From Actinomycetota bacterium (GTDB lineage Bacteria; Actinomycetota; Thermoleophilia; BMS3ABIN01): 64,000 nucleotides of DNA. Below, one piece after another: positions 35,246-54,492 of the stretch. The notes under the pieces were generated by a model. That model was not told the DNA's origin. It saw only the letters and a list, made by a program, of their open reading frames with translations, and searched no databases. Position 1 is the stretch's first letter; each line of letters begins with the position of its first letter. The DNA lies in the NCBI GenBank assembly GCA_016235065.1, contig JACRMB010000007.1, forward strand, positions 62,001-126,000, in the 5' to 3' direction. A program made the position numbers and the translations under genes.

Positions 35246-35413
35246 ATTAGTGAACGCGAGATCCATAGTATCCATCACGATTTGAGTCGCCACAGGGCGA
35301 CGCATCACCCACCTTACATGGGGGCGACCTGGTTTCGACGGGGTCAATCTGGATGGGAGCAGCAAGCCGAGCTTCCGGTGGGCTCGTTAAACTACCGGAA
35401 AACTAACTCAAAC

Positions 35414-35443
35414 GCAGACGATAATCTCGCGTTAGCCGCTTAA
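35414..35443 (+). other. tmRNA proteolysis-tag coding segment
   Basis: GCA GAC GAT AAT CTC GCG TTA GCC GCT TAA reads ADDNLALAA and stop, ending in the canonical ALAA degron. The frame is open further upstream (KTNSN), so the exact resume codon is not fixed by inspection. Confidence 0.8.
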
Positions 35444-37158
35444 TTGCGGCTCGTCGTTCCCGCTAAGTCCACGAGCGGGGTAACGGCGTCAACAAGTGGA
35501 CTCAACCGCCGCGGTTGTCTCTCGCCGCGGTTGGGAAACCTTAGAGAGGCTGGCGGACCGGATCCTGCCTTCGCGGAGCCGGAACGTGAGAAACCAAAAG
35601 CGTAGGCTAAGCTTGTAGATACTCCCTTTTGGATGGCTTCGGACGCGGGTTCGATTCCCGCCGCCTCCACCAAACGCTTGTTACCCGAACTTTGCTCGAA
35701 CAGAGCGCCAAAAAGTTCGGTGTAATCTTTGTTGCTGATTTTCTTGTCTTTCACATAGATCTTTTCAAAAATGGCTTGGTTAAAGAGCCGTTTGTATTTG
35801 TCGCTGCATCCCTTGTAGGCGTCAGCGCAATAGGACGCCAGCTCAGCCGCCCGGGTCAGAATCCCGGTGTAATATTCCAGCTGGGTAGTAATCACTTTCA
35901 ATCTGCCCTCGGACACAGCCATTTCAGAAGCTATCCGGTCCTGCTCGATTTTGAGAACGTCCATGGGAACGGCACCAGCGTAATAGGCTTTCACGATTTT
36001 CAGCTTCTCCGCGTTTAGCCGCTGCATTTTCTTAAGGATGAACTGCTCTTCCATTGCCTGATGTTCCTGGCGTGAAATCAATTCTTCTCGGAAATCCTTG
36101 ACCAGTCTTTCGATGCTGTCTTTGGGAAGCTGAATCTCTTCGTAGAGTTCAACAATCTGTTTTTCAATATCTGAGGCCAGCACGTGCTTTGTATGAGTAC
36201 AGCCTCTACCCCTCTTAGTTCCCAGACAATAGAAGTAGTTGTATTTGCCTTTGGCCTTGGCGATGGAGAGCCGGGAACCGCATTCACCACAAAAGAGGGT
36301 TCCCTTGAGAAAGTGGGGATGCTTTCTCTTTCGCTCCCCGGCAGTGTTTCTCATATCGGTCACTTCTTGAACCTTGTCAAAAAGCTCCTTGTCGATGAGC
36401 GGTTCATGGTTGCCCTTCGCCTGAACGCCGCTCCACGTGACGGTTCCTATAAAGAATGGATTGGCCAGGACGCGGTTCACTGTGGAGGAAGTAAGAGGCT
36501 TATTCTCGTCCTTTTGGCTTCTGATTCCTTTGTCATAAAGGAAATCCCGAATATCGTCCACCGAATAATTGCCGGTCGAATAAAGTTCAAAGGCTTCTTT
36601 GACAAAAGGACCGGCGACAGGATCGATGATCACCTTGGCAATGCCTCTGCCACCTTCGCGGATGTTCTTGTAGCCGACAGGAGCCTGATGAGGCCAACCG
36701 CCCTGCTTCACTTTCTGTTCCATGCCTTTTTTGATTTCGGTGGCCAGATTAGCGGAGTAAAACTCGGCCATTAGTGCGTGTATGCCCTCCACGAACCTTC
36801 CCGAGGCGCTGTCCTCGATATTTTCAACCACAGATACCAGCTGGACGTTGGCGCGCTTGAGAATGGCTTTGATCGCCACATGGTCTTCCATATTCCGCGC
36901 CAGCCGGTCGATCTTGTGAACAACAATGGCGCTGACATCTTTTCCCTTTTTGATACGGGAAAGCATCAGCTGAAGGCTTGGGCGGTGAGCGCTCCTGGCG
37001 GATTCGCCCCTGTCGGCGTACTCATCAATAAACTTCCAGCCCTTTTCCTGAATGAGCTTCATACAGGCTTCACGCTGGGCAGCGATAGAGTAGCCTTCGC
37101 TCTCATTGGTCTGGGCCTGTTCCTTGGTTGATACTCTTAAATAAATGACACAGTTCAT
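35440..37158 (-). CDS. Large serine recombinase; C-terminus encoded antisense to ssrA
   Basis: Integrase of the island. Residues 1-145: resolvase catalytic domain (VIYLRVSTKEQ with the nucleophile Ser10, VVHKIDRLARN, and an R in DRGESARSAHRPSL). Then the recombinase DNA-binding domain (APVGYKNIREG to FFIGTVTWSG), a zinc ribbon CGECGSR...C...C and a long coiled coil (residues about 345-440). After GNKRLVEA the frame enters the ssrA 3' end and about 75 further codons are antisense tmRNA (AGIEPASEAIQKGVSTS onward), stopping opposite the tag codons. That tail is unlikely to be native. The start overlaps the XRE gene stop. Confidence 0.92.
   Translation of the reverse strand: MNCVIYLRVSTKEQAQTNESEGYSIAAQREACMKLIQEKGWKFIDEYADRGESARSAHRPSLQLMLSRIKKGKDVSAIVVHKIDRLARNMEDHVAIKAILKRANVQLVSVVENIEDSASGRFVEGIHALMAEFYSANLATEIKKGMEQKVKQGGWPHQAPVGYKNIREGGRGIAKVIIDPVAGPFVKEAFELYSTGNYSVDDIRDFLYDKGIRSQKDENKPLTSSTVNRVLANPFFIGTVTWSGVQAKGNHEPLIDKELFDKVQEVTDMRNTAGERKRKHPHFLKGTLFCGECGSRLSIAKAKGKYNYFYCLGTKRGRGCTHTKHVLASDIEKQIVELYEEIQLPKDSIERLVKDFREELISRQEHQAMEEQFILKKMQRLNAEKLKIVKAYYAGAVPMDVLKIEQDRIASEMAVSEGRLKVITTQLEYYTGILTRAAELASYCADAYKGCSDKYKRLFNQAIFEKIYVKDKKISNKDYTELFGALFEQSSGNKRLVEAAGIEPASEAIQKGVSTSLAYAFGFSRSGSAKAGSGPPASLRFPNRGERQPRRLSPLVDAVTPLVDLAGTTSRN
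35661..35672 (+). repeat. Left attachment core (12-bp direct repeat)
   Basis: CCGCCTCCACCA, the last 12 bases of tmRNA including CCA. Exact copy at 54470-54481 in the same orientation. Bases on either side of the two copies differ. Confidence 0.85.
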
Positions 37159-37526
37159 TTCTTTTTCCTCTGCGCCTCTCTGGCTTTCATCACTGCTTCA
37201 TAAGCTCGAATCAGTGACGCCTTCTCTTCGGCGTTCATGTTCGGCACTTCCTTAAACATCATCGTGAAGCCAGGATCGGTAAGACCCAGGCGTTCAAGTT
37301 CAGAGTCCTGTTTTAAGTCTTCCACTTCTTCCCAAGCTAGCCCCATGATGTCAGCCCAAGCCTTGAGCTTGTCATCAGAGGGAAGGAAGCGGCCTCGTTC
37401 GGCATCCGAGATGTAGCTATTTGATCCGACGCCGAGTCTTTCAGCCAGGTCTTCCTGGCTGATGCCTTTTTCCAGACGGATTTGCTTCATCTTTTTGCCG
37501 AAATGAATGTGTTTTTTCTTTTCCAT
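37155..37526 (-). CDS. XRE-family transcriptional regulator
   Basis: 123 residues with an N-terminal helix-turn-helix (MKQIRLEKGISQEDLAERLGV then SYISDAERGRFLPSDDKLKA). A helical C-terminal half (MNAEEKASLIRAYEAVMKAR) may dimerise. ATG 37526 is used because it begins the conserved part; an in-frame start 13 codons upstream is less likely. Its stop overlaps the recombinase start (ATGA), so it heads a two-gene leftward operon and probably controls excision. Two inverted-repeat sites upstream are likely its operators. Confidence 0.85.
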   Translation of the reverse strand: MEKKKHIHFGKKMKQIRLEKGISQEDLAERLGVGSNSYISDAERGRFLPSDDKLKAWADIMGLAWEEVEDLKQDSELERLGLTDPGFTMMFKEVPNMNAEEKASLIRAYEAVMKAREAQRKKK

Positions 37527-37620
37527 CGCTTTTCTGACGATACAATAGCATCGATTGCGAGTCAATGGTTTTATGAAATCCAGCTATTTATCCACAATAA
37601 GCGTTATCTTGTACACTTGA

Positions 37621-37643
37621 AATATCGTAAGTATACCGATATT
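37621..37643. promoter_or_regulatory. Inverted-repeat operator, copy 1
   Basis: AATATCG - 9 bases - CGATATT. Identical arms and spacing recur at 37686-37706. It lies between the divergent XRE gene and the small rightward gene; arms spaced this way suit an XRE dimer. Confidence 0.7.
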
Positions 37644-37685
37644 ATTGATTCATCTTCGGCTTATGCCCTTTATTTTTGGCTTAGT

Positions 37686-37706
37686 ATATCGAAGGATTAA
37701 CGATAT
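37686..37706. promoter_or_regulatory. Inverted-repeat operator, copy 2
   Basis: ATATCG - 9 bases - CGATAT, 65 bp from copy 1 centre to centre, overlapping the probable promoter of the rightward gene. Confidence 0.7.
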
Positions 37707-37729
37707 TTAATAGGTTCAGAGAGGCAAAA

Positions 37730-37915
37730 ATGACTGACACCCGCTTCCAAGAGTTAGACAGTGAAAAGGTCAGATACCAGATGAAGAAACTGGTAGCTGC
37801 CTTTTTGGGTGCCGCCGAAGAATCGATCCTGGCCGAGAGGGCCGGCGCTGAAAAAGCCAAGCCCCAGCCTTCCCACAACAAATCCACCGCCCATCCGCAG
37901 GAAAGCGCCTCTTAA
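37730..37915 (+). CDS. Small hypothetical protein of the island
   Basis: 61 residues, ATG with GAGAGG upstream and directly behind operator copy 2, so probably regulated by the XRE protein. An N-terminal amphipathic helix (FQELDSEKVRYQMKKLVAAF) continues through AAEESILAERAGAEKA, and the tail is rich in Pro, His and Ser. No family recognised. By position it could be an excision factor, antirepressor or regulator, but nothing in the sequence proves it. Confidence 0.55.
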   Translation: MTDTRFQELDSEKVRYQMKKLVAAFLGAAEESILAERAGAEKAKPQPSHNKSTAHPQESAS

Positions 37916-38017
37916 AATGCCTATTAATTACGTATTAAGACCCAAAACCTTGAAAAACATTAAAACCACCAGGGGGAAATTAACTGGATTTACAGGGCAT
38001 TTAGCCCACTTCAATCC

Positions 38018-38144
38018 AGCGCCGTCTGTCTTCGTTTACAGATCAAACGAAGCCCGACTTCCCGCCCCTCGACTTGCAGTTTCCCTCGTTTCTTCGTCTC
38101 GTCGGCGAGGCGCGGGAAGTCTGGCTTATCAGCCAGACGGCGCT
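38018..38144. repeat. Nested inverted-repeat element, possible origin or structured RNA
   Basis: Outer arms AGCGCCGTCTG (38018-38028) and CAGACGGCGCT (38134-38144) are perfect. Inside, CTTCGTTT/AAACGAAG (38030-38037, 38045-38052) forms a hairpin, and a 16-bp stem with one mismatch pairs 38056-38071 with 38106-38121. A further TCTGGCT/AGCCAGA hairpin competes with the outer arm. GC-rich in AT-rich surroundings, 48 bases before the replication-relaxation gene. Confidence 0.7.
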
Positions 38145-38191
38145 CCCTTCGGTCGCTTAATTTCTCCCTGGTTTAAAACGGAAAGACAAGA

Positions 38192-39031
38192 ATGAAAACA
38201 GCAAGAATAAACAACCGAATAACACCGATGTCGTTGACAGCTCGGGACGTGATGATAATCCTAAGTGTTTACGAGAATCGCTTCTTGAGGCGGGACCAGC
38301 TTCAGCGGCTTCACTTTTCAAGTGCATCACAGGTTGCCTGTTGTGTCCGGCTCAAGAAGCTTTACGAGAATCATTTTCTCGACAGGGTTGATCGACCGGC
38401 AACCTCAGTCAAATCCCAGGCCGTTTACGCCCTCGACAAGCGAGGGGCCGACGTGGTGGCGGTAACTCTTGAAATCAACCGCCATAAGATCAGATGGAGC
38501 CGCGCCGCGAACCGCGTGGAATGGCTCTTCATGGACCACACACTAGCTGTGTCTGAGTTCAAGGTATGCCTCGACGTGACGCTTGCCACTCGGAGAGAAG
38601 AGATATATTTCTATCAGCGAGGAGACAGGTCTCATCTGCGCCGGATTTCCGTGACGGGAGCCAAGAAGAGATATTTTGTTGTTGCACCTGACGCCTTCTT
38701 TGGAATCCAGAGCGGCAGAGGCAAGCACATCTTCTTTTTGGAGGTGGATATGGGAACGGAGACGCTATCGAGGTTTACTGAAAAGGTTGTTGCTTACAAG
38801 AGATATTGGAAATCCGGAAAATACGGAGAGGAATACGGATTCAATCACTTTCGCGTCATCACTATCTGTGAAAGCGAAAGACGCCTGGACAATTTACGCC
38901 AGGCGACGGGGAAAGCAGGAGGGCAAAGAATGTTTCTGTTTACGACTTTCCAAGCAATTCAGGAATACAGCACGCTTGGAAGCATCTGGCTTTCCCCGGT
39001 TTCAGATTTACCAACTTCTTTGTTGGAATAG
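38192..39031 (+). CDS. Replication-relaxation family protein
   Basis: 279 residues. Winged-helix N-terminus (LTARDVMIILSVYENRFLRRDQLQRLHF, VRLKKLYENHFLDRVDRP) followed by a nuclease-like core: DHTLAVSEFKVCLDV and an acidic HIFFLEVDMGTETLSRFTEKVVAYKRYW, the conserved end of the Replic_Relax family found on plasmids and integrative elements. The family is linked to plasmid replication or relaxation; biochemical detail is limited. It follows the nested inverted repeat, which may be its target. Confidence 0.8.
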   Translation: MKTARINNRITPMSLTARDVMIILSVYENRFLRRDQLQRLHFSSASQVACCVRLKKLYENHFLDRVDRPATSVKSQAVYALDKRGADVVAVTLEINRHKIRWSRAANRVEWLFMDHTLAVSEFKVCLDVTLATRREEIYFYQRGDRSHLRRISVTGAKKRYFVVAPDAFFGIQSGRGKHIFFLEVDMGTETLSRFTEKVVAYKRYWKSGKYGEEYGFNHFRVITICESERRLDNLRQATGKAGGQRMFLFTTFQAIQEYSTLGSIWLSPVSDLPTSLLE

Positions 39032-39427
39032 CCCGTTTAGGGCATGGCTTTCAGGGTCAGTCCCGGAAGGATGAAGCCCTTTTCCGCAAATCTGCCGCGC
39101 ACCTTCCTCCTTGGCAGGTTTTGCCCTTGCTGGCTGCGGAAGGTCCGGCTCAGGCTGCGAGCAAGCGTCCCCGAGCCGGGCTGAAGGCTCAAAGGTATGA
39201 ATTACCATTAATAAACTAGGAGTTTGACAAGAAGCTCATGTGTTGACAGATGTTCAGCTGAAGCTTTATAGTTTAATAACCGGTGGGGGAGGAAAAAATT
39301 ATGCCCTGGCGAAGTACACAACTAAGGTTGGTGCTGCCAGGAGCTTTTTGGTTCTAATCTTTGGCAAACGCAACCCTGGGCGATGCATCGAACGTTTGTC
39401 CATGCAAAGTTTGGAGCAGCGAGACAA
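39032..39427. other. Intergenic region with GC-rich hairpins and leader
   Basis: 396 bases without a convincing gene. The left half is GC-rich with complementary CCGGCTC/GAGCCGG arms around 39145-39180; the right half is AT-rich and holds a promoter for the P-loop/HD pair, leaving a leader of about 150 bases. Confidence 0.5.
39243..39272 (+). promoter_or_regulatory. Sigma-70 promoter of the P-loop/HD pair
   Basis: Perfect TTGACA and TATAGT separated by 18 bases. A second TTGACA-like hexamer lies upstream (GTTTGACAAG near 39221). The rightward gene pair begins about 150 bases downstream. Confidence 0.7.
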
Positions 39428-40372
39428 ATGAATACAATCGTATTCGCATCGGCCAAGGGACAGGTCGGCAAAAGTACACTTTGCCGACTTTACGCCGAGT
39501 ACTATGCTGTGGAAAAAAAACTCAAGACTCTAGTTATTGAGTCTAATTTTTTTACCTCCGGCAAGGAATATCCAATCTCTTGCGAACTTCCGAAGACAAT
39601 CGATGAATTTATTTTAAGTTCTGTCGCTGAGAATATTCCAGATTCTGAACTCCCCAGTTATATCAATAGCACTGAACTTGCTAACCTTTTTATACTACCC
39701 ACAAAAAGGATTTCAGATCAGGATATCTATTCTCCAGCAGATGAAGAAGCTAAAGATAACATTCGCAAACTTCTCGCTGTAGAAAGCACAACAAAGTTTA
39801 TTACTTCTTGTATTCAGCGGATAAATAAATATGCTCTCGAGGAGAAGTTTGACTTTTTTCTAATTGACACAACTTCAGATACCTCACCTAATTTAAATCT
39901 AACTTTAATTGATCGTGTTTTGACCTCTAGCTTCATTAATGGTCATGTTATGGCCATAGCTGAAACGAACTTTGAGGTCTTAAAAGAAACTATTATTTTT
40001 ATATATAAGAATGCTGGAAGAACGAAAACCTCAATCGAGCAACAAACTCTGATTACAAACAAAACTCCTACTGATGATCAAATCGATGAAGTTTGTCGGA
40101 TCGAAGAAGACGATCAATGTTTTGATAAACAGCTGAAAGAAGCTGCAGAAAAACAAAATGTCGTAAATTTTATCCTTAGTCAAGCAAACGTTCCCTTTGT
40201 TCTTAAAGACAATCAAGACGCTTTGAAGGGCTTAGAAGAGCTTTACATTCCTTTTGAAATTAGATTAAAGAGTTCCTCGCCACTGCCTCAGCCCAAAGAG
40301 CTATTGAAAAAATTGGAGGCTTTACAGCCCAACATTCAAGCGACTGCTGATCGCATTCTCGAACTCTGCTAG
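39428..40372 (+). CDS. ParA/MinD-like P-loop ATPase
   Basis: 314 residues starting at ATG with GGAG upstream. The N-terminus MNTIVFASAKGQVGKSTLC is a deviant Walker A of the ParA/MinD/CbiA class, with glutamine where KGGxGKS has glycine, and FDFFLIDTTSDTSPN is the Walker B segment. The C-terminal third is helical and polar (QIDEVCRIEEDDQCFDKQLK). No ParB-like gene or parS repeat is near; instead an HD phosphohydrolase gene follows 51 bases later. This suggests a regulatory or sensing switch in a two-gene unit rather than plasmid partition; partition cannot be excluded. Confidence 0.72.
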   Translation: MNTIVFASAKGQVGKSTLCRLYAEYYAVEKKLKTLVIESNFFTSGKEYPISCELPKTIDEFILSSVAENIPDSELPSYINSTELANLFILPTKRISDQDIYSPADEEAKDNIRKLLAVESTTKFITSCIQRINKYALEEKFDFFLIDTTSDTSPNLNLTLIDRVLTSSFINGHVMAIAETNFEVLKETIIFIYKNAGRTKTSIEQQTLITNKTPTDDQIDEVCRIEEDDQCFDKQLKEAAEKQNVVNFILSQANVPFVLKDNQDALKGLEELYIPFEIRLKSSSPLPQPKELLKKLEALQPNIQATADRILELC

Positions 40373-40423
40373 TCATTTTTTTCTCCGCCTTTTCTCCGCC
40401 AATCAACAGGAAATGAATTTTTG

Positions 40424-41818
40424 ATGCGAATGTTGCTAGACGACAAACGTTTTTTTAAAGATTATTTCAACTTCAGAGATGAACTGGAGCGAATTTCTGA
40501 GCTTAGAATCGATAGCTTGGGCGAGATAAATCGTACTCCAATATTTGAAGAAGATGTACCTTGGTCAGATAAGCACGATCAATATGCAGATGTAATGTAT
40601 TCAAAAAATAAGATGGACTGGCCAAGGTTGAAATTGCCGCACGAATCACTGCGTCGTTTCGCTCATGTCTATTTTGCACCTCTCGGTATTCGGGCATCAG
40701 TTGGTGATTACGTATTTTTTGAGTGGCTAATGGGCTTTAATCCATCTGCAGATAATATAAAACGAGAGCACTTTGGGCATGTGTCCAAAGTTGCTTGGTG
40801 TTGTTGGAAGCTGATTGAAATATTCAAGGAAGTGCAACCAGCTGATGATGTTTCTGTCCATGAAGTATTAATTTCATCAACAAGAAGAAAGTTCAAAGCA
40901 TTTCTCGATCATGTTGGGGTGCCTCTTAATGAAGATACCGATTTTGGAAGGATTTTGCTGGAATCTGTACTTTTAGCAGCCTATATGCATGATAAAGGAA
41001 TTATTCTAAATTTCTATGATGATCTTCGGGAGAAGGTTCTTCACGCGTTTAAACCGATGTGGGACCAAAGTTTGCTGTACTATGGTGGCACTGGCGAACG
41101 TGCAAGAAAAAAATATAGCTCTTTTTGCGATTGCGATAATGTTTATGACGGTAAAAATGATTGTTCCGTTGAGGATGTCATGGGCATGGAGCGAGTATGC
41201 AACTTTTTCGCGGCCGAGCGCGTATTAGGTAGGGATTATTGGCACGACATTTTTTGCAATTATGCTACCTCAAAATTTCCTAGGACAATCTATGACGAAG
41301 TAAAAAAGAACTATCACGGTGTTTATGCAGCTCTTGAGTTGCTTGCAATGCAGATTGGTTGCTTACAAAAAAATGCTGACCAATTTAGTGATTCCCTAGA
41401 GCGAGAATTCATCCTAGCTTTAGCTGCCGAGGCCGTTGCACTACATGATTTGAAGGTTGAAAAAAGAATAGACCTTGAAGAAAGCCCAACTGCTTTTCTT
41501 CTGTATTTGGCAGATGAGATTCAACAATGGCAACGGCACCAATTAGATATTAATAAGTTGCTCAATGAGCAAGTGCTTTATTGGGGGGATGGCGAGATTC
41601 AAAAAGTTTGCATAGAGACCGATGAAAATGATCTGTTCATTCAAATAACAAAGATCTCCAACGAAACAGATATTAGCAAAATTAAGAATGACATCTTAAA
41701 AGCAGAGCGGAAGATTCAGGAACGTTTAGACACCAAAGGACTGTTTACAATTCATTATTTTATTGATACATGTAATATATGTGACGTTGTTCCTGCGAGA
41801 GATTTAATTAAAGCTTGA
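40424..41818 (+). CDS. HD-domain phosphohydrolase-like protein
   Basis: 464 residues. HD-superfamily residues can be followed in order: REHFGHVSKVAWC (first His), LAAYMHDKGIIL (HD pair), KNYHGVYAALELLA, AAEAVALHDLKV, and SPTAFLLYLADEIQQWQR (terminal Asp), a block shared by HD proteins whose usual form is nPlaFLLxLxDelQxWxR. The N-terminal 90 and C-terminal 80 residues are not recognised. Substrate unknown; nucleotides are likely. Together with the P-loop ATPase it is a candidate defence pair. Confidence 0.68.
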   Translation: MRMLLDDKRFFKDYFNFRDELERISELRIDSLGEINRTPIFEEDVPWSDKHDQYADVMYSKNKMDWPRLKLPHESLRRFAHVYFAPLGIRASVGDYVFFEWLMGFNPSADNIKREHFGHVSKVAWCCWKLIEIFKEVQPADDVSVHEVLISSTRRKFKAFLDHVGVPLNEDTDFGRILLESVLLAAYMHDKGIILNFYDDLREKVLHAFKPMWDQSLLYYGGTGERARKKYSSFCDCDNVYDGKNDCSVEDVMGMERVCNFFAAERVLGRDYWHDIFCNYATSKFPRTIYDEVKKNYHGVYAALELLAMQIGCLQKNADQFSDSLEREFILALAAEAVALHDLKVEKRIDLEESPTAFLLYLADEIQQWQRHQLDINKLLNEQVLYWGDGEIQKVCIETDENDLFIQITKISNETDISKIKNDILKAERKIQERLDTKGLFTIHYFIDTCNICDVVPARDLIKA

Positions 41819-41840
41819 CGAACATATTACTTTATTGAAA

Positions 41841-41870
41841 AAAGGCGAATCTTAAAAATGATTCGCCTTT
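41841..41870. terminator. Bidirectional terminator between convergent genes
   Basis: An 11-bp stem AAAGGCGAATC/GATTCGCCTTT with a TTAAAAAT loop, flanked by A-rich and T-rich sides, sits between the rightward HD gene and the leftward small gene. Confidence 0.88.
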
Positions 41871-41875
41871 TTGCT

Positions 41876-42298
41876 TTAAAGCAGCACAGCCAGATTCATG
41901 TTCTCCACGTTCTCGTCTTCACGAGCCCGCATATTACTGAGGATCTCAATGGTTCTTATGAACTCCCCTGCAATGTGTTTTGCTAAACGTCCTGAGATTC
42001 CACCATATCCCCCCACTATTCTGAAGGGCCTGAAGTATACCATCCCGTTATGGATAACGGGAACCTGCCCCTCTCCTAGAAAGGTAGTGCCTGATGAATT
42101 TATTCTCAAACGTTCTTCTAGTTCTAATTCGAGATCCAGATTAGCCTCGAATTTGGGGAATGTCATGTGAAGGCCATACACCTCTAACGCAATACGCTTC
42201 GACTTTCCATCATCGATGTATTGAAAGAGCTTTTCGATAGAAGGAAAAATTATATTCCATGCCTTCTCGATCAGTTCTTGCCCTATCACATTTTGCAT
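41876..42298 (-). CDS. Hypothetical protein
   Basis: 140 residues, not recognised. The N-terminal helix (LIEKAWNIIFPSIEKLFQYI) is followed by beta-like segments (KRIALEVYGLHMTFPKFEAN, TTFLGEGQVPVIHNGMVYF), a glycine-rich turn GGYGGISGRLAKHI and a helix. No cysteines, no membrane segment. It is last on the leftward strand, 191 bases after the UPF0489-like gene, and may or may not belong to that operon. Confidence 0.6.
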   Translation of the reverse strand: MQNVIGQELIEKAWNIIFPSIEKLFQYIDDGKSKRIALEVYGLHMTFPKFEANLDLELELEERLRINSSGTTFLGEGQVPVIHNGMVYFRPFRIVGGYGGISGRLAKHIAGEFIRTIEILSNMRAREDENVENMNLAVLL

Positions 42299-42489
42299 GA
42301 TGCGCTCCTTTTACTCACTTTCCAGGACTGGAACTGCCCATGAGCCTGCTCAGGCAGAACCCAGCCCTAGAAAAGCTAAGGAGCTCAATAATAGATATAT
42401 CACAAATAATAAAAATTGTATACAGTTTTGGTCTACAGTATTTCTTGAGAAAGCAGCATTTGTTGAAACTGAGAGTTTAGAAAATGCTT

Positions 42490-43254
42490 TTAGAATTCTT
42501 CGATGTAGCTTCTTATCAAATCAACGAGGGCATCAGAAGTCGCAGGTGTATATTCTGGCGAAAGGCTCAGGATAACCAAATCAAACGGTTTCTCGGCCTG
42601 ATATTCAGCAACAGAAACCATTTCAAAAGGTATCTCGGGCTCGCATTCTATAATATCCTCATATTCGAGGTCATTCACATCTTTATTATTTTCAAAGCCA
42701 CGTTCACAACGTTTTAGTTCGATGATTCCTGAGTTTCGAGAGAAATCTTTGAAATGTAAATGGATAAGGTCATTTCCACCGCGTTCATGATGTACATAAG
42801 TTAGACGTGATATCCATTGACATGCTATTGCAAATGCAAGGTAGTTCCCAGGTAAAATTCCGTAAGAATTGCCGCGTTTCGGGTCGCTACGTTCAATTAC
42901 CGGTTTGTGCAACAGCTCTCCCATGATATAAACGTAAGCAGCATCTCCCAAACCCATATCTGCATGGGCATCTGCGTGAACGACTTCAAAAGGATTTCGG
43001 ATTCTCCCAGCTGTAATCTCCTCACGCCAATAATAAAAAGCCTCATCATGATGAGTAATAATTTTTCCTGGAGCCCTATTAACAGTGGAAAGCAAGCACT
43101 GCTGTTCCAAGAATAGTATTAGCCTTTCCTTAGGCCAAGGCCGATATTCCTCTTCATCTAGGCGAGAATCACCTTGCTGCCAGTGGGCTATATCCGAAAG
43201 GAAAAGATCAAGGTCGAGATCGAGAATGCGTTGTTGTGACAAGATCTTTGTCAA
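42490..43254 (-). CDS. UPF0489-like arginase-fold protein
   Basis: 254 residues from TTG directly after the protease stop, with only two bases between. ILDLDLDLFLSD and FEVVHADAHADMGLGD are the metal-binding blocks of the UPF0489 family, whose fold resembles arginase/deacetylase, with LVILSLSPEYTP as the last strand. The reaction is unknown; ureohydrolase-like or deacetylase-like chemistry is possible. Its fixed position behind an ImmA/IrrE protease and an HD enzyme is unusual. Confidence 0.72.
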   Translation of the reverse strand: MTKILSQQRILDLDLDLFLSDIAHWQQGDSRLDEEEYRPWPKERLILFLEQQCLLSTVNRAPGKIITHHDEAFYYWREEITAGRIRNPFEVVHADAHADMGLGDAAYVYIMGELLHKPVIERSDPKRGNSYGILPGNYLAFAIACQWISRLTYVHHERGGNDLIHLHFKDFSRNSGIIELKRCERGFENNKDVNDLEYEDIIECEPEIPFEMVSVAEYQAEKPFDLVILSLSPEYTPATSDALVDLIRSYIEEF

Positions 43255-43255
43255 T

Positions 43256-44047
43256 TTAAATGAACAGCTTTAGACTGCTCATTGAAACAATAAGGAATAC
43301 GACATCGTTCGATTGCTCATCTATGTCTAAAAATTGCACGTTTTCGAATTGATCCTTATCTCTTTTGCTGAGATACTCCTGAGCTAATTCCCGAAGCTTA
43401 CTCCTATCATCCTTCGACAGTGATGGGGAAGCAGCCGCGCCTTGTTTGATTAAGCGCCAATTATTATCTTCGCTCCTCATCCAACGACCCGCAATACCAG
43501 TTACCAACTCATAATCGGCTAGCATAATTCTTGCAGCCCAAGAACGGTTGATATTAAGATAAACATGTAGCTTTCGAAAAATAGTTTCGAGATTAGTTTC
43601 ACCAATAATTTCTAGAAACTCTAGGTGCTGTCTTGGTGCTAATAAATGTCGTGCAACGTCAAAACAAAAATGTTCTTCTCTTGTTTGATGAGTAATTAAT
43701 CTGCGGGGCTTGCTTTCAAGGGGACTTGTGTAGAATAACGTATGCGCTAACTCGTGAGCCACAGATGCTCTAAATCTTCGGGCTGGAAGGTCGGCATTGA
43801 CGCGAATTTGGAAGCCGTAATTTGTCGGCAACAACATCGCCCCACTTTCCATACCTGAAAAAGTCTCGATTTTTGAATTCAGGACTCGTGCAAGGCGATA
43901 GACTTCAACTGGTACGATGCGGCGATAGCTTGGGTGATTCATGTAGCCTTCAAGTAAAAAATTGGAGGCTTCCTTCACGGCCTGCTGCCAGACTTCCCCT
44001 TCTGCAGATAGCCACTCTTGGACTAAGTTGACGCTGGTTTCACTCAT
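43256..44047 (-). CDS. ImmA/IrrE-family metallopeptidase
   Basis: 263 residues. The zinc site HELAHTLFY lies in RASVAHELAHTLFYTSPL, with a downstream glutamate in REEHFCFDVARHLLAP as third ligand, the arrangement of ImmA/IrrE gluzincins, which cleave repressors in response to stress. The ATG overlaps the end of the upstream HD gene by eight bases (ATGAGTGA), so they are translated together. Its target may be an operon partner or a host repressor (inference). Confidence 0.85.
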   Translation of the reverse strand: MSETSVNLVQEWLSAEGEVWQQAVKEASNFLLEGYMNHPSYRRIVPVEVYRLARVLNSKIETFSGMESGAMLLPTNYGFQIRVNADLPARRFRASVAHELAHTLFYTSPLESKPRRLITHQTREEHFCFDVARHLLAPRQHLEFLEIIGETNLETIFRKLHVYLNINRSWAARIMLADYELVTGIAGRWMRSEDNNWRLIKQGAAASPSLSKDDRSKLRELAQEYLSKRDKDQFENVQFLDIDEQSNDVVFLIVSMSSLKLFI

Positions 44048-45731
44048 TTTCCTCAGATTGCTCTTCTGCTTTAGTGCCATCTAATTCGAGTTGATCTTTT
44101 GAATTTTTTACTTTTGACTTTTTCACAGGACTACTCTTTTCAGAAGCAGCCTCGCTAATAGCTTCATCAATTAACGACTCGTCAAATGACCCTCCTTCCA
44201 ACGCAGCATCTTCCTCTGTCATTTCTGTAACTCGACGAGAGACATCAGGAGCATATCTTGTTCTCCAGGCACCATTCACTTTTTCATAAATCTCAGCTGC
44301 TTCTTTAAAACGAGGATTTTGTTTCGCGTAAGTTTCGATAAACACCGGATCACAATCTATTCCTAGCTCCCTCGCTAATGCGTCGATGACTGCTGGTGCC
44401 TTTTCCATCTGTTCCGGATTAATCCCAATCCAAAATGTCCAGAGATCCAAGTATTGGTTTTCTATGGTTTCAACGCGATCATATACTCTTCGAAACTGAT
44501 CACGGACTTCCTGGCTCCGAAGTACGACAGGCTTATGCCATCCGCCGGACTGTTGCCAGATGACATTTGCTTTTACAAGCTTCATTCCTGACTTTCCTTC
44601 GGGACACCAGAGAACAAGTGAGCCACGTTGTAAATCGAGCCTATCTTCGATTTTGACGAGTAGTTCTTCTATTGCTTCTGAATTGCGCCATTTCACATCG
44701 AATTTGTCATCATCTGACTGGCTGTTCCTTCGATTCCAACTCTCCATGTCTTGCCGTTGAATCTTGAAAATACGCTTATATAGATTTCGTGACCGTAAAC
44801 GGTCAAGCAACATTTTGGCACCATCTCCTGTAGGCTTGTCAGGGGAATTCGCTGCCAGGCTTTCGAGGTATAGGAGAAAGGCTTCATCTCCCATATCCAA
44901 CAGTTTGGGTTCATCTTCTAAATTTGCAAGCCTTGCTGCGCGGGCTAACATTGCGCTTGCGATTGCCTTGGCGTGATGGTAAATGACGCGTTCAGTCAGA
45001 GCATACCTCATGTCAAGTAAGTCCATTATTGCCGAAACTATATCTGTACGAAGGCCGCCCTTTGTTAATTTTATGCATAGCCTTTCGTTGGTTCCTTCCG
45101 TCCCATCATCATCCCTAACCGTTTTTTCTGCCCTGGTGAAATAGTCATAGATGCGGTAATAGCCCGGTCGCTTCTCGATGCCAGTCCATGCGGCGTCGGT
45201 GGTGATGTAAGCGAGGAGATCAGCGCAAACGGTATTGCCGACAAGATCGCTCTTCCAATCCCGAACGGAGTCATTTGACGAGGAAATAGCGTGAAGTATT
45301 GGTGCCGCTCTATCAATGAGGGCTTGTGCATCATCGCCCACCTCACCCTTGAGTTTTTCAAGAACGTTTGAGACGCGCTCGCCCTTGTCGTGCTTTGGTA
45401 AAACTTCATTCTCGTCTTCCAGTGTGTGGCTAAAAGGAACGTGTCCCATATCATGCAAAAGGGCCGCCATTCTTACATCCGACCAGTCATTGCTACCTGC
45501 TTCAACCCCAATAGCATCGAGAAGCCTGGAAGCTTCGTCAAGACATTCAATACTGTGTCCTGCTCTCGTGTGGGTTGCACTAGGATAAACTAAATGAGCT
45601 AATCCAAGTTGTTTCAAATAAAACAGACGCTGAAAGACTCTGGTTCTTGTAATTTCAGCCTCAAGCTCTGTGAGCTTTACATCGCGGTTGGGTATGCGGA
45701 ATCTTTTATTTTTTTCGTCGAAGTCGCTCAA
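44040..45731 (-). CDS. HD-domain dNTPase-like phosphohydrolase
   Basis: 563 residues resembling dGTPase/SAMHD1-type enzymes. FQRLFYLKQLGLAHLVYPSATHTRAGHS leads into the first His, and MAALLHDMGHVPFSHTLED is the HD motif with the usual PFSH; NDSVRDWKSDLVGN and LAYITTDAAWTG complete the core (the last Asp). The C-terminal tail is acidic and lysine-rich (KSSPVKKSKVKNSKDQ) and probably disordered. Predicted to hydrolyse dNTPs or another nucleotide. It leads an operon with the protease and the UPF0489-like gene. Confidence 0.84.
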   Translation of the reverse strand: MSDFDEKNKRFRIPNRDVKLTELEAEITRTRVFQRLFYLKQLGLAHLVYPSATHTRAGHSIECLDEASRLLDAIGVEAGSNDWSDVRMAALLHDMGHVPFSHTLEDENEVLPKHDKGERVSNVLEKLKGEVGDDAQALIDRAAPILHAISSSNDSVRDWKSDLVGNTVCADLLAYITTDAAWTGIEKRPGYYRIYDYFTRAEKTVRDDDGTEGTNERLCIKLTKGGLRTDIVSAIMDLLDMRYALTERVIYHHAKAIASAMLARAARLANLEDEPKLLDMGDEAFLLYLESLAANSPDKPTGDGAKMLLDRLRSRNLYKRIFKIQRQDMESWNRRNSQSDDDKFDVKWRNSEAIEELLVKIEDRLDLQRGSLVLWCPEGKSGMKLVKANVIWQQSGGWHKPVVLRSQEVRDQFRRVYDRVETIENQYLDLWTFWIGINPEQMEKAPAVIDALARELGIDCDPVFIETYAKQNPRFKEAAEIYEKVNGAWRTRYAPDVSRRVTEMTEEDAALEGGSFDESLIDEAISEAASEKSSPVKKSKVKNSKDQLELDGTKAEEQSEENE

Positions 45732-45838
45732 GATTTTCCCACCCAGCTCGGTTTTTTTTGGGGAAACAATTATAGTCTATGGTGACTAAAAAAGAACCCT
45801 TTTCTTCAAAAGGCACATAAATAGATGTATCTTGAAAG

Positions 45839-45875
45839 AAAAAAGCGGAAAATTCGCGAGAACGCTCCGCTTTTT
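45839..45875 (-). terminator. Rho-independent terminator
   Basis: Arms AAAAAAGCGGA and TCCGCTTTTT around a 16-base loop. Located 29 bases after the stop of the leftward gene ending at 45904, and upstream of the HD operon, which it isolates. Confidence 0.8.
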
Positions 45876-45903
45876 CATATTGCTATATCACATTTACGTT
45901 GCT

Positions 45904-46485
45904 TCAGAGGCTTTCATTGAGTTGCAGCACCCATTCTGATCGGTTTGCAGCGCTCTCAACCTCTTTCTTATACTCAGCGGCGTGAAACAGGATCTCCTGT
46001 CGCACCAGCTCAATCTGCTTTTCCCTGAAAGCTGCTCCGCTTAAGGGTTTATCCGGAATAGCCTTGAGATTGCAATCGGCGTCGATGCTCTTTCCAAGCT
46101 TTGAAAGCATGAAATCCTTCAGGCTCCTATGACCTTGACTTGGCGGTTCCCATGCGCTCGCCTTGGAAAACATCGCTTCATATCGAATCTTCACTTTCTT
46201 CACCCTATCGTTATGCAACCGCGCTTCCTCGACCTCTCTTTCAAATTCGTCAACTGCCATTATTGATGCAGTCTCATCATCCCAGGCGTCGATTGTGGAG
46301 AGACGATCCATCGCATCTCGTAGCTTTTCGAGCTGCTCATTGCTGGGCTCGAATTTTTCTGGAATGGGCTCATTCTCCTCCAGCACACCGAGGAATATGC
46401 CTGAATTACGTGCGCACTGAATCGCAAAATGTGAAAAACTCACCTCTTTTCCATCGTAAATGTTTTTTGTGTACTCGTTTGGCAT
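45904..46485 (-). CDS. Hypothetical protein, phage-like
   Basis: 193 residues, mostly helical and charged, not recognised. EKLRDAMDRLSTIDAWDDET and EFEREVEEARLHNDRVKKVK suggest coiled coil; the C-terminus (AAFREKQIELVRQEILFHAA) is also helical. Similar charged helical proteins occur in phages and islands. ATG is preceded by AAGGAG. Divergent from dcm, with 194 bases between that hold both promoters. Confidence 0.6.
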   Translation of the reverse strand: MPNEYTKNIYDGKEVSFSHFAIQCARNSGIFLGVLEENEPIPEKFEPSNEQLEKLRDAMDRLSTIDAWDDETASIMAVDEFEREVEEARLHNDRVKKVKIRYEAMFSKASAWEPPSQGHRSLKDFMLSKLGKSIDADCNLKAIPDKPLSGAAFREKQIELVRQEILFHAAEYKKEVESAANRSEWVLQLNESL

Positions 46486-46679
46486 AGTAACTCCTTTGAA
46501 TTCAAGTAGCCAAAATCGTCATTTTGAATATAACAAAGTTATGATAATTTATCAACTATTATGTGAGTAGAAAATCCTCAATTCTAGGGAAAAATATCGG
46601 TTTCTAATTAGGGGGCGGGATTTCAGCCGTCCGTATTGAATTCTAAACTGAATAGAATAGAATCAGGTTTGCATTTGGC

Positions 46680-47936
46680 GTGGAGCAAAATCGTGTTTAT
46701 CATCGACCGTTTAGGAACTTTTTATTGCCGACTGAATTACTAAAAAAACCTTTTTCCACTAGCCAGGAGCCTAAGAGAGCCTCTAGGCAACACGTTTTCT
46801 ATGAGTTCTTTGCTGGCGGCGGGATGGCCAGGGCAGGCTTGGGCCGTCAGTGGAAGTGCGTTTTTGCGAACGAGATCGATAAGAAGAAGGCTGAAACATA
46901 CCGGGCAAATTGGGGAGCTCAGGATTTAAGTGTGCAGGATGTTAATCTCGTTACGCTGGATGATCTACAGGGTGAGGCAGATCTTTCTTGGGCGTCATTT
47001 CCGTGTCAGGACCTTTCATTGGCAGGTAATGGGATGGGTTTATGCGCTCAACGTAGCGGCACCTTTTGGCCCTTTTGGAAGCTAATGCGCGGGCTCGTCA
47101 AAGAGGGTCGAGGGCCAAGGCTAATAATTCTCGAAAACGTCTATGGCGCGCTCACGAGTCATAATGGACGTGATTTTGCTGAAATCGGTTCCGCATTGTC
47201 CGGTTCAGATTATTCTTTCGGCGCGGTAGTGATTGATGCAGTTCACTTCGTTCCCCAAAGTCGGCCAAGGCTATTTGTAATAGGGGTCAGAAAAGATTTA
47301 AGAATTCCTGACGAATTAAAGGCGGGATCTGCGGGCTTGCTTTGGCATCCAAAAGCCATCCTGGCCGCACATCGTAATCTTTCAAAGACCGCAGCGAAGA
47401 AGTGGGTATGGTGGGATATTCCAGCCCCATCAACTCGATCGATCTCTTTACCAGCGCTCATTGAGACAGAGCCAACCGGAACCACTTGGCACACTGCCAA
47501 AGAAACGGCTTACTTGCTGAAGCTCATGTCACCAACCAATAAGAAAAAAGTTGAATCGGCCAAAGCATCCGGCAAGCGGATGATTGGAACGGTTTATAGG
47601 AGGACAAGGAATGGTCAGCAACGAGCCGAGGTCAGATTTGACGAAATTTCAGGGTGTTTGCGAACACCAATCGGAGGGTCTAGCAGACAAACTATCTTAG
47701 TCGTTGAAAAGGGCAAGGTCAGGTCCCGGCTTCTTTCGACAAGAGAAGCGGCGCGTCTCATGGGCCTTAAGGACACTTATAAGATTCCTGACAACTATAA
47801 TGCTGCTTATCATCTTGCCGGTGATGGTGTTGTTGTTCCTGTCGTGGGGCACATAAGCAAACACGTTCTCGAACCCATTCTTGAAGCGAATTCCACAACC
47901 GCTAGGGAAAGCTCGGCTATTTCACCTCGTGCCTGA
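46680..47936 (+). CDS. DNA (cytosine-5)-methyltransferase
   Basis: 418 residues starting at GTG. Motif I FYEFFAGGGMARAGLGRQW, motif IV SWASFPCQDLSLAG with the catalytic cysteine in PCQ, motif VI ILENVYGAL (ENV), motif VIII FVPQSRPRLFVIGVR (QxRxR), and a C-terminal motif IX-X around RLLSTREAARLMGLKD. A complete m5C enzyme, the modification half of a restriction-modification system with the overlapping downstream gene; sequence specificity unknown. Confidence 0.94.
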   Translation: MEQNRVYHRPFRNFLLPTELLKKPFSTSQEPKRASRQHVFYEFFAGGGMARAGLGRQWKCVFANEIDKKKAETYRANWGAQDLSVQDVNLVTLDDLQGEADLSWASFPCQDLSLAGNGMGLCAQRSGTFWPFWKLMRGLVKEGRGPRLIILENVYGALTSHNGRDFAEIGSALSGSDYSFGAVVIDAVHFVPQSRPRLFVIGVRKDLRIPDELKAGSAGLLWHPKAILAAHRNLSKTAAKKWVWWDIPAPSTRSISLPALIETEPTGTTWHTAKETAYLLKLMSPTNKKKVESAKASGKRMIGTVYRRTRNGQQRAEVRFDEISGCLRTPIGGSSRQTILVVEKGKVRSRLLSTREAARLMGLKDTYKIPDNYNAAYHLAGDGVVVPVVGHISKHVLEPILEANSTTARESSAISPRA

Positions 47937-48867
47937 TGCATTATTAAAAGCCCTGAAGGAGTTTCTCGAAGATAACCCTACTTTTGGGATGAAGGGGCCG
48001 CTATGCGTCGCATTGGTTGTTACTGACCAGGCTCAAAAATATGGATTACCTCTTGAGCCGGACAATTTACTCACGGGAAGGGGAGGTCAGGTTGCTGGGC
48101 TGAGCGGTGGAGCCGTCCAAACAATACTTAATAGACATGGGATTGACAGACCCCTTGCTAAAGAAGGAGGCAGAACAAGTCGCGGAAGCATCGATAATAT
48201 GAGGCTTTTTGTGGATTTTCTCAATCATTTGGAAGCTGAAGGATTGGTGGACTTCGAGGTTATAGAATCCTTCTGGATCAACCAGACCAAGGAGTTCTTT
48301 GCAAGCAAACCCTTCAAACTAAAACTTGATGCCTCCCGCAGCATCGTTTTCATAGTGCGAGATTTGCTGGACCAAACAAGAGCACGGGAAAAAGAAATGC
48401 CCGGCGTTCATTATGCAGGCGCGGTCATTCAACATCTTGTTGGAGCCAAGTTAGATTGTGTACTTGGTACTGGAAACATTGAGCATCACAGTTTCTCAAC
48501 TTCTGACCAGCAAACAGGCAGGCACGGTGATTTCTTTACTGGTGACGTCGCGGTACATGTAACCACTGCACCAAACGAAGCTGTAATTGACAGATGTCAG
48601 ACAAATCTAAATGAAGGCCATCGCCCGATCTTGATCACCCTTGAAGATAAGGTTGAGTATTCAAAGATTACAGCAGATCAGCGAGGGTTAGGTGAGCGGA
48701 TCGATGTATTCGGGATCGAACAGTTCGTGGCAGCCAACATTTATGAATTAGGTGGCTTTGCAGGTGAGGGTAGGAAAACGACCATCGCCGATCTGATCAA
48801 GCGTTACAACGAAATTATTGAATCAGCAGAAACTGACCACAGTATGAAGATTGCCTTCCAGGGCTGA
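47929..48867 (+). CDS. DUF4928 family protein, probable restriction endonuclease
   Basis: 312 residues from GTG 47929, which overlaps the methyltransferase stop; TTG 47881 is an alternative. Typical DUF4928 segments: LVVTDQAQKYGLPLEPDNLL, GRGGQVAGLSGGAVQTIL and, in the C-terminal half, HYAGAVIQHLVGAKLDCVLG with GDFFTGDVAVHVTTAP. This family stands next to m5C methyltransferases, so it is probably the cognate restriction enzyme. No PD-(D/E)XK is obvious, though the late acidic/lysine stretch ILITLEDKVEYSKI could serve. Confidence 0.8.
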   Translation: MPDALLKALKEFLEDNPTFGMKGPLCVALVVTDQAQKYGLPLEPDNLLTGRGGQVAGLSGGAVQTILNRHGIDRPLAKEGGRTSRGSIDNMRLFVDFLNHLEAEGLVDFEVIESFWINQTKEFFASKPFKLKLDASRSIVFIVRDLLDQTRAREKEMPGVHYAGAVIQHLVGAKLDCVLGTGNIEHHSFSTSDQQTGRHGDFFTGDVAVHVTTAPNEAVIDRCQTNLNEGHRPILITLEDKVEYSKITADQRGLGERIDVFGIEQFVAANIYELGGFAGEGRKTTIADLIKRYNEIIESAETDHSMKIAFQG

Positions 48868-49294
48868 TAAATCTGCAGCTGCCAAGCGCAGTGAGATAAT
48901 GCGGGCCGTTCATTCTGAGGACACTGGTCCTGAAATGATAGTCCGTAAGCTAGTACACTCTCTCGGTTTTAGGTATCGCCTTCACGTATCGACTCTCCCC
49001 GGGAAACCAGACCTAGTTTTTCCGTCCAGAAGGAAAGTTATATTTGTCCACGGATGCTTCTGGCATGGCGACAGTTGTAAGCGAGGCAAACGAGTTCCCA
49101 AAGGAAATCGCGACTATTGGGTTAAGAAAATCAGTCGGAACGTTGAGCGGGATAAGAAGAACCAGAAATTATTAAATGAGCTTGGCTGGGACTATTTGAT
49201 TATCTGGGAGCATGAATTGAAAGATTTGGCGCTCGCAGAAAACCGAATTGTTAGTTTTCTAGACCCAACAAGATATAAGTCAAATGGAAAATAA
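48851..49294 (+). CDS. vsr: Very short patch repair endonuclease Vsr
   Basis: 147 residues, TTG start overlapping the preceding gene. Nicks next to T in T:G mismatches formed when 5-methylcytosine deaminates. Motifs: RSEIMRAVHSEDTGPEMIVR, FRYRLHVSTLPGKPDLVFPS with the catalytic aspartate, VIFVHGCFWHGDSC with zinc ligands, and DYWVKKISRNVERDKKN. Placed after an m5C methyltransferase, it protects the host from methylation-induced mutation. Confidence 0.95.
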   Translation: MPSRADKSAAAKRSEIMRAVHSEDTGPEMIVRKLVHSLGFRYRLHVSTLPGKPDLVFPSRRKVIFVHGCFWHGDSCKRGKRVPKGNRDYWVKKISRNVERDKKNQKLLNELGWDYLIIWEHELKDLALAENRIVSFLDPTRYKSNGK

Positions 49295-50090
49295 CCGCTC
49301 GAAATCTGTACCGGCGTTAACATCCGGTCAGCTAGAAGCGCTTTGTAAAACTTTAGCTGATACTTTTTCTGGTCTAACAGGCTCAGAAATCGGTCATATT
49401 CTGAATCAAATTCGGGTCGCTGATATATCGCCGATAATGACCAAATGGAAACGCCTTTATAACGCTTTAGTAGAGCGTCAGAATCGGGATCAAAGTGGAG
49501 ATCGTGTCTTTGCCTTCATTGCTCGGGCAATGGAGCCAGCTCGTTATGCAGGTCAAATTGATTTCTTTGAACAAAGAGTACAAGAAATTAATGTCACATT
49601 GTCATATCTCGGATATGAGTTTCATGAGGATGGCAAGTTCCATCGTTGCAAGCAAGCAAAAACGTTATCCGAAGCCGAGGAAAGAGCTAACCGAATGCGA
49701 TCCCTACTTATTAAACGTAATATTCATCCTGACGTTATCAAATTTTGTCGAGCCGAACTCATGAAAAATAATTGTTTTCATGCCGTTCTCGAAGCTTGTA
49801 AAAGCGTAACCGCAAAGATCAGAGATCGCACCGGACTGACCAGCGATGGAGCTCAACTAATACAGGAAGCATTTGGAGGTAATAGCCCGCTTCTCAGGGT
49901 AAACTCCTTTTCTTCAGAAAGTGAGAAAGGAGAACAAAGAGGTTTTATGAATCTTGCCATCGGCTTATTCGGGACGTTTCGTAATCCGACTGCTCATGAG
50001 GCAAGAATTCGCTGGCCTCTCAACGAAGAAGATGCATTAGATCTCTTTGCCTTAGCTTCTTATGTGCATCGCAGAATTGAACGAATTTAG
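49284..50090 (+). CDS. TIGR02391/Ymh family protein
   Basis: 268 residues overlapping vsr by eleven bases. The C-terminal half carries the Ymh signature: FHAVLEACKSVTAKIRDRTG, GLFGTFRNPTAHEARIRW and EDALDLFALASYVHRRIERI. The R-N-P-T-A-H pattern is HEPN-like, suggesting RNA binding or cleavage. Ymh proteins are common inside restriction-modification and defence clusters, but their activity is not settled. Confidence 0.82.
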   Translation: MENNRSKSVPALTSGQLEALCKTLADTFSGLTGSEIGHILNQIRVADISPIMTKWKRLYNALVERQNRDQSGDRVFAFIARAMEPARYAGQIDFFEQRVQEINVTLSYLGYEFHEDGKFHRCKQAKTLSEAEERANRMRSLLIKRNIHPDVIKFCRAELMKNNCFHAVLEACKSVTAKIRDRTGLTSDGAQLIQEAFGGNSPLLRVNSFSSESEKGEQRGFMNLAIGLFGTFRNPTAHEARIRWPLNEEDALDLFALASYVHRRIERI

Positions 50091-50175
50091 TAGAGCTAAA
50101 GATTCCTATGACTTGACTGCGCGAGCGATTGGTCATGTAATAAGCGGTATTATTCAACTTCTGGGCGGGCAATAA

Positions 50176-51777
50176 ATGTCTTCTCCAGTAAAAAACAAGC
50201 TTTCCATTTATCTGATCAAAAGCGAATACCAAGACGCTGAAGTGATTGTTGATGATATTGACAATCTGGAGAAGCTGGAGATCAGCGAGGGTTTAACGCT
50301 CTATTATGGCGACTCCCATACCTATCGGCCAGGCTGGGTCGGGAAATTTTTTAGAGACAGTGTTCCTGATGAAGCTGCCATCTTCAATGCCTCTTCTAAA
50401 GCGCTTCTAATGGTAGAAGTCGATATCGCCGGTAAAAAGAGAATCTTTTGCATTTCGTTCGGTCAGGGTCGGCACATCATGCAATCGGGTGCATGGGAGG
50501 AAAGTTTTGGGCTTAAAGTGACCTTGAATGCCATTGATCCGAATAATCTGCGGAGCATCGAGAAGACGAATATGTCATCAGTTCCAAAGCATGCAAGCGA
50601 ACAGATAAGCCGGGATGGCGCAGCCGCCGATTTTGGAATTGATATTGAGCAAGATCTTGTCAGGGCGGTAACCGGAAAATCAAAAGAGGAACTATTTGGG
50701 CTGACGATCACGGGAAAAGACAGCTTACAATCCTCGGTAAAAATAGATATATCAAATGTCAAAGAATTTCTGATCGCTTGTTTCAACAAATCTCAGAGCG
50801 ATGATTATAAGAAAGATTTTGGATGGATAGACCAGATTTCGGAAATCAAAGATCCGCACCTGGTTGATGAGTTAAATGGCGAGCTGGTAAATAGAATCCG
50901 GGCAATTGAGCTTGAAAAGACTTGGATTGCTGTGCCGCAAATCATCGAGTGGGAAGATGTTGCGGGATTCAAATATCGAAATAGTATTCGAGACCAGAAT
51001 GAGGATGACATTAGCCTACCGGCATTCCTCGAATCTTTAACGGCAACGGCAAGGGAAGATGTTTCTCTAGAGCTGTTGAAAAGCAGGAAGGTATATTGCT
51101 TTAGTGCAAGCACAGACCAACTGCTCCATAGGTGGCCCATCTATAACTGCATTTATTCTGAAATCAGCATAAGCGGGAAAACATATTTGCTTAACAATGG
51201 TAAGTGGTATCAAATCAATGACGATTTCGCAGCCAAAGTAAATTCAGACTTCGAGGTATTGAGAGACGCGGGATCTACCCTTTCCTTCCCAGATTGTGGC
51301 AATGAAAGGGAAGATGTATACAACCAAAGAGTGGCAGCTGAAAATGGCATGCGCTGTTTGGATAGTGATAACGTCATTTATGGTGGGGGCTACAGCAGAA
51401 TCGAATTTTGCGATCTTCTGACAAGAGACAAGCAAATCGTACATGTTAAGAAGTATGGAGGTTCATCCGTACTTAGCCATTTGTTTTCACAAGCAGTAGT
51501 TTCCGGCGAAGCATTTCTAAGCGCCGAGGAATTTCGAGAGAAACTAAATGAGAAGCTGGAGGGGGCATATAAACTGGACGACCCGTCTACGAAACCTGAC
51601 CCAGCAGATTATGAAATAATTTTCGGAGTAATAAGCAAATCTACCGCGGCGCTAGAGCTACCTTTCTTTAGCAAAGTCACATTGCGAAATGCGAAGATAA
51701 GATTGGAAGCGTTCGGCTTCAAGAGGATTTCGTTGGCAAAAATTCAACATATCGAAGGTGAGGCTGACATCGAATAA
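50176..51777 (+). CDS. TIGR04141/DUF6119 family sporadically distributed protein
   Basis: 533 residues, ATG start. The N-terminus (KLSIYLIKSEYQDAEVIVDD, then GWVGKFFRD, AIFNASSKALLMVEVDIAGK, ISFGQGRHIM) matches this family, which appears patchily in defence and mobile contexts. The middle contains DLVRAVTGKSKEELFGLTIT and the C-terminus IHVKKYGGSSVLSHLFSQAV-like nuclease-like segments (VHVKKYGGS with acidic residues upstream YSRIEFCDLL), which could be a PD-(D/E)XK-related core. Function unknown. Confidence 0.8.
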   Translation: MSSPVKNKLSIYLIKSEYQDAEVIVDDIDNLEKLEISEGLTLYYGDSHTYRPGWVGKFFRDSVPDEAAIFNASSKALLMVEVDIAGKKRIFCISFGQGRHIMQSGAWEESFGLKVTLNAIDPNNLRSIEKTNMSSVPKHASEQISRDGAAADFGIDIEQDLVRAVTGKSKEELFGLTITGKDSLQSSVKIDISNVKEFLIACFNKSQSDDYKKDFGWIDQISEIKDPHLVDELNGELVNRIRAIELEKTWIAVPQIIEWEDVAGFKYRNSIRDQNEDDISLPAFLESLTATAREDVSLELLKSRKVYCFSASTDQLLHRWPIYNCIYSEISISGKTYLLNNGKWYQINDDFAAKVNSDFEVLRDAGSTLSFPDCGNEREDVYNQRVAAENGMRCLDSDNVIYGGGYSRIEFCDLLTRDKQIVHVKKYGGSSVLSHLFSQAVVSGEAFLSAEEFREKLNEKLEGAYKLDDPSTKPDPADYEIIFGVISKSTAALELPFFSKVTLRNAKIRLEAFGFKRISLAKIQHIEGEADIE

Positions 51778-53676: not shown

Positions 53677-53678
53677 GA

Positions 53679-54481: not shown

Positions 54482-54492
54482 TCTTCTCCTCT

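Follow-up and report, generated by a model that had tools for sequence, protein, structure and literature searches.

The window analysed here, a stretch of 64,000 nucleotides of contig JACRMB010000007.1 from an actinomycetotal genome of the class Thermoleophilia, carries an integrative island (35661..54481, 18,809 bp core to core) inserted at the tmRNA gene ssrA. The target gene (35320..35672, + strand) is intact at attL and ends in a 12-bp core repeat, CCGCCTCCACCA (35661..35672), which recurs at attR (54470..54481); these two are the only exact matches to CCGCCTCCACCA in the window. Inside the island, a large serine recombinase gene runs on the minus strand towards ssrA. In the integrated state it is read as an open frame of 572 aa with an ATG start (35440..37158), in which Pfam recognizes Resolvase (PF00239), Recombinase (PF07508) and Zn_ribbon_recom (PF13408) domains; this is the domain order of large serine integrases, which also contain a coiled-coil insertion. 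The recombinase start overlaps by 4 bp with the gene of an HTH protein (37155..37565, - strand), which is a possible regulator of the recombinase. The locus thus has the organization of a tRNA/tmRNA island, with an intact RNA gene at one end, a direct repeat of its 3' fragment at the other and an integrase inside, and the same organization was found in relatives. The island also encodes a Replic_Relax protein, a weak AAA match and restriction-modification cargo (46680-50090) composed of a cytosine methylase, a DUF4928 restriction enzyme, Vsr and a Hypoth_Ymh/PD-Lambda-3_B-like protein. Judged by its gene content, it is a defence-bearing integrative element.

The recombinase frame meets no stop ahead of the core at 35661-35672 and continues into the antisense strand of the tmRNA gene, where its stop (35440-35442) lies opposite the stop codon of the tmRNA tag. 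When the two cores were joined in silico, the same frame was kept and gave a circular-form recombinase of 523 aa ending VQRYSNSEVNILSRLERVMKQVSA. Residues 1-499 are common to the circular and the integrated forms, and are followed by a tail of 24 residues in the former and of 73 residues in the latter. The last conserved strand and all three domains lie upstream of the core, and only the C-terminal segment would be exchanged by integration. These results bear out the original prediction that the recombinase gene spans its own attachment core and that joined cores continue its frame into DNA from the far end of the island; the tail lengths given there, 23 residues for the circular form and about 75 for the integrated form, were each off by one or two residues. 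When the island is integrated, the far-end segment (54396..54482, - strand) is an orphan frame of 28 codons, MVEAVQRYSNSEVNILSRLERVMKQVSA. A structure model of the integrated form, built with 24 natural homologues, is of low overall confidence (pTM 0.36); it contains two long helices (residues 346-393 and 399-442), in keeping with a coiled-coil insertion, and the solved structures nearest to it are serine integrase complexes, including those of Bxb1 and phiC31. From residue 484 onwards its pLDDT does not reach 50, and the antisense-tmRNA tail is therefore probably disordered. The circular tail carries a heptad-like ILxxLExxV pattern, and this conserved C-terminal segment is probably helical.

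The cores are flanked by arms. A P' arm motif, TTACCCGAAC (35681..35690), lies 8 bp after the CCA and conforms to the family form TTATTCRAAC, and its mirror, the P arm motif GTTCGAATAA (54453..54462), precedes the right core. Family elements beside a CCA have CCA-N8-TTATTCRAAC or close variants, and GTTCGAATAA-N16-CCA, the mirror of this near-end motif, marks their far ends. In a bare pattern search, GTTYGAATAR-N16-CCA had 45 matches in 11 of the 12 genomes of the window's family; eight genomes from other families had no match, and neither did reversed-pattern controls. The arms are positioned at -28 and +18 relative to the CCA end, so that the reconstructed attP has, as in large serine integrases, inverted arms round a short core and is longer than attB; for A118, 22 bp per side are required for attP compared with 19 for attB (PMC3556126). 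As mirrored arms flanking the cores are what an attP dyad requires, the core pair goes beyond chance. The T-arm of attB (GTTCRA) is 5 bp nearer the core than the P arm of attP, and the near invariance of the T-arm would account for the use of different tRNA genes by close relatives. No empty site with the window's right flank was seen in relatives (ssrA was located in genomes G001, G002 and G004, and the right flank lies elsewhere in G002 and was not found in G001 or G004); attB was therefore reconstructed. A naturally joined attP was looked for in the assemblies of 399 genomes from the class and not encountered, and the circle has therefore not been observed directly.

Comparison with relatives indicates that a recombinase split at its att site is the trait of a family of dozens of islands, and not a peculiarity of one sequence. 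In about 40 recombinases of the clade the frame enters a tRNA or tmRNA gene on its antisense strand, with the phase nearly always the same. Among 37 homologue 3' ends, 31 enter annotated tRNA or tmRNA genes in antisense, and eight kinds of RNA gene are involved; in four of the six exceptions (L042, L043, L048 and L065) T-arm-like sequence is still read, and in the other two (L044 and L064) it is absent. The phase relative to the T-arm is constant (GFEP, GLEP, GIEP and similar) except in a truncated copy (L072), and the linker that leads from the last conserved strand to the core measures from a few to about 60 codons yet is always in frame. Homologues closed before the core were looked for, and none was found among full-length clade members. 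About ten more members in other families of the phylum also run into RNA genes, and eight remote large serine recombinases (L034-L039, L179 and L181) do not. Two of the exceptions have unusual 3' ends. L044 (recombinase 3318-1843, - strand) is full-length, with neither a tRNA nor T-arm-like sequence beyond its P' arm, and possibly uses another kind of target. In L043 (around 1810) the recombinase 3' end lies against the 3' half of a tRNA-Val whose 5' half could not be detected, as though a tRNA fragment moved from its original place had been the target.

A second recombinase in the window's own genome, 54% identical to the first, lies against tRNA-Met in like manner; the far end of its island gave nothing by exact-repeat search and was recovered by motif search. 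The far ends of distant members (G021, G036, G042, G082, G486 and G441) were not found by searching with their own arms. The closest relative, in a Thermoleophilia MAG (L007/L040), has a recombinase 91% identical at the same ssrA site, and its DNA similarity to the window is limited to about 3.5 kb beside attL, so that the integration module is common to the two elements and the rest of the DNA compared differs. Viral contigs contained no relative, and the relatives in phage and plasmid records were all below 60% identity (about 21-31% among the matches listed) and were left out of the further comparisons.

The original prediction called for a comparison of the circular junction tail with homologues, and the same C-terminal segment was found at the far ends of their islands (VEAVQRYSNSEVNILSRLERVMKQVSA in the window; VGVIGTYSNLYMLNQLEKAVMAAVA, VDLIGSYSNIAVLNQLEIVINEVMSA and VDHLLRYSNTLKDDIFLLNSLKRHMKKISA elsewhere). 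Of 59 far-end sites read antisense from the CCA, 54 have 20 or more open codons in the frame that continues the recombinase; for the two remaining frames the counts are 9 and 17. The joined frame was open and in phase in all ten elements that could be rebuilt from both ends, pairing being uncertain where far ends are in tandem, and no out-of-phase junction was encountered. Residues 1-9 of the tail (to YSN) are encoded by the core and the P-arm motif and the rest lies beyond the att arm; pN/pS and codon-position tests were applied only to the sequence beyond this motif. There, pN/pS is 0.45 in the tail frame versus 0.92 and 1.33 in the others, and differences in 20 disjoint sequence pairs are distributed over the three codon positions as 69, 59 and 97 (third-position excess, p = 0.0014). 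In addition, insertions between tail classes are multiples of three. The concentration of differences at third positions and the low pN/pS mark the tail as a selected protein segment. The predicted swap of the recombinase C-terminus upon integration is thus supported, and the circular tail is moreover conserved across the family.

Serine integrases integrate without a directionality factor and excise with one, and the direction of the reaction is usually ascribed to that separate factor. The structural part of our proposal is that the serine integrase gene spans attP and that integration exchanges a conserved C-terminus, which these comparisons make very probable. In the excised circle the gene would be complete (523 aa), its C-terminal segment being encoded by the other island end. 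On recombination with a tRNA or tmRNA gene at its 3' end, the recombinase gene would be broken inside the core; the segment would stay at attR, and the recombinase gene would gain a tail encoded by the antisense strand of the host's RNA gene. The integrated and circular forms should make different proteins, and we infer that both are made. The regulatory part, that the circular form favours integration and that the tail-less form is held in another state, is more tentative; it could well hold, and we would not yet call it probable. The tail helix may act on the coiled-coil/zinc end of the enzyme and affect synapsis, in which case the circular form would favour attP x attB integration and the form without the helix would either excise with a directionality factor or be inactive. 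Because an integrated element must sometimes excise or borrow another copy of the enzyme, the tail is likelier to be needed for integration or restraint than for catalysis. The swapped-on tail is host sequence and is different at every target gene. Orphan far ends without a recombinase keep the tail; the simple model would predict this only if such ends were young or moved in trans.

The overlap might also be passive, a serious alternative that in our judgement stops somewhat short of probable. On this view attP simply happens to be sited where the gene ends; the circular tail would be an ordinary C-terminus serving stability or DNA binding, the integrated form with a host tail of any kind would do about equally well and there would be no switch. 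An attP beside int is usual (PMC5311408), the conserved tail would show merely selection on the circular form, and a host tail that varies with the target leaves no specific function to be selected in it. However, a protein-selected segment that is lost at every integration should have some consequence, and the analogous exchange in phage Mx8 alters integrase specificity (PMC6070905).

Another way of accounting for the conserved segment is that it acts when integrated, as a separate small peptide with a ribosome-binding site and a start supplied by host DNA, and works in trans on the tail-less recombinase, for example as a directionality factor. At the window's attR, AGAGGAG stands before the ATG of the 28-codon frame, and TTAGAGGAGAAG precedes this ATG, in frame with the tail. 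An SD-like word is present at a suitable distance in 24 of 56 sites (7.7 expected by shuffling), 50 of the 56 have ATG, GTG or TTG as the putative start codon, and the tail frame is kept by orphan far ends. However, the CCA end of the RNA gene by itself generates an NTG, the SD-like word may stem from a recurring host-side sequence (terminator, B' arm) and not from translation, and it is absent from over half of the sites; we consider such a peptide unlikely. Conservation of the tail merely as attachment-site DNA is highly improbable: its first nine residues do fall in the core and P-arm motif, but the pN/pS and codon-position signals come from beyond that motif, and on these grounds, together with the triplet insertions, this reading was rejected. 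Finally, reading through the core by chance, which has an appreciable probability for a single element alone, is refuted by the family comparison and scarcely deserves further consideration, as dozens of elements inserted at various RNA genes share the phase and the tail, and the eight remote recombinases show no such reading.

Integron-like arrays without a recombinase were observed downstream of ssrA, tRNA-Ala, tRNA-Val and tRNA-Met (L166, at G002:C1 87742-95080, and L126, L127, L128, L129 and L130), and also in the window's own genome (G000:C1:66730 and G000:C6:53324). Their units, of about 0.8-3.4 kb, start with a terminator-like hairpin and an inverted T-arm copy, and each ends in P arm-CCA with a recombinase tail frame. 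By eye, the cargo includes toxin-antitoxin-like pairs in several units, TIR and UvrD-like proteins in one and DsbA/DsbB-like proteins in one. The chromosomal side of attR (window 54482-54560) is a degenerate copy of such a unit start, with a hairpin at about 54493-54517 and then ...CTCGATAACCGGAGCGAATCGAA; the host attB thus consists of T-arm, CCA and hairpin element. At another locus (L089, G036:C11 around 35400), short nested att-like units carry arms of both types, P and P', together with a tail-like frame, and have no recombinase upstream. A P|P'-like junction on this contig encodes LNKETLVGLSGGLSNHSFADLLQ and, likewise without an upstream recombinase, is at most suggestive.

In its widest form our proposal is speculative and, on balance, doubtful: serine integrases of this family would be toggled by their own att site, the circle making an integration-competent form with the helix, and integration removing the helix and perhaps releasing a peptide from attR. 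Direction would then be partly hard-wired, and the same segment and site would bound recombinase-less cassettes movable in trans. A DNA rearrangement that itself changes the C-terminus of an enzyme would provide two natural forms with which to ask how an integrating integrase differs from an excising one. A further consequence would be that, for many proteins of the recombinase family encoded next to tRNA genes, the C-terminus now annotated is antisense sequence of the host, and that integrases obtained from integrated islands for use in genome engineering may be assayed in a form that lacks the natural C-terminus.

An attP inside an integrase gene is known from Myxococcus phage Mx8 and from the fuselloviruses (SSV). 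Both have tyrosine integrases, and the archaeal SSV enzyme is split into two large parts. The recombinase described here has serine recombinase domains and not those of the Mx8 type; it is therefore Mx8-like in gene structure and not a member of the Mx8 family. The serine-integrase version appears to be novel, since no serine integrase with a C-terminus encoded across attP was found in the literature searched, an absence that is weak evidence because the search reached few subscription papers. Mx8 is the closest precedent. In this phage and in Mx9, attP lies inside int (Tojo 1996; Magrini 1999; both via PMC6070905), and Mx8 integration creates a new int 3' end, an altered integrase C-terminus and a changed specificity. 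Integrases of the Mx8 type have attP within the gene and in frame on both sides, as does the recombinase described here. In contrast with Mx8, we describe a serine integrase, a family of elements inserted in many tRNA and tmRNA genes, and an alignable conserved segment beyond attP. SSV integrases, named together with that of Mx8 as extending across attP (PMC4383910), resemble the present case in that insertion into a tRNA gene splits the integrase gene at attP, whereas here the three domains stay together and the C-terminal segment alone is exchanged. With the large serine integrases of phages (A118, Bxb1, phiC31, phiJoe) the recombinase shares domain order and fold. Integration of serine recombinases into tRNA genes was called unknown in 2014 (PMC4383910) and rare elsewhere (PMC3218068); use of the 3' end of a tRNA gene by a serine recombinase is a likeness to mycobacterial AICEs in tRNA-Leu (PMC3218068) and to phiRSM in tRNA-Ser (PMC4471427). 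The attP of serine integrases is about 45-50 bp long with inverted arms (PMC5311408). That of phiJoe is 18 bp upstream of int and outside the gene (PMC5311408), and that of phiRSM lies between two genes, outside the recombinase gene (PMC4471427), whereas in the family described here attP lies inside the recombinase gene.
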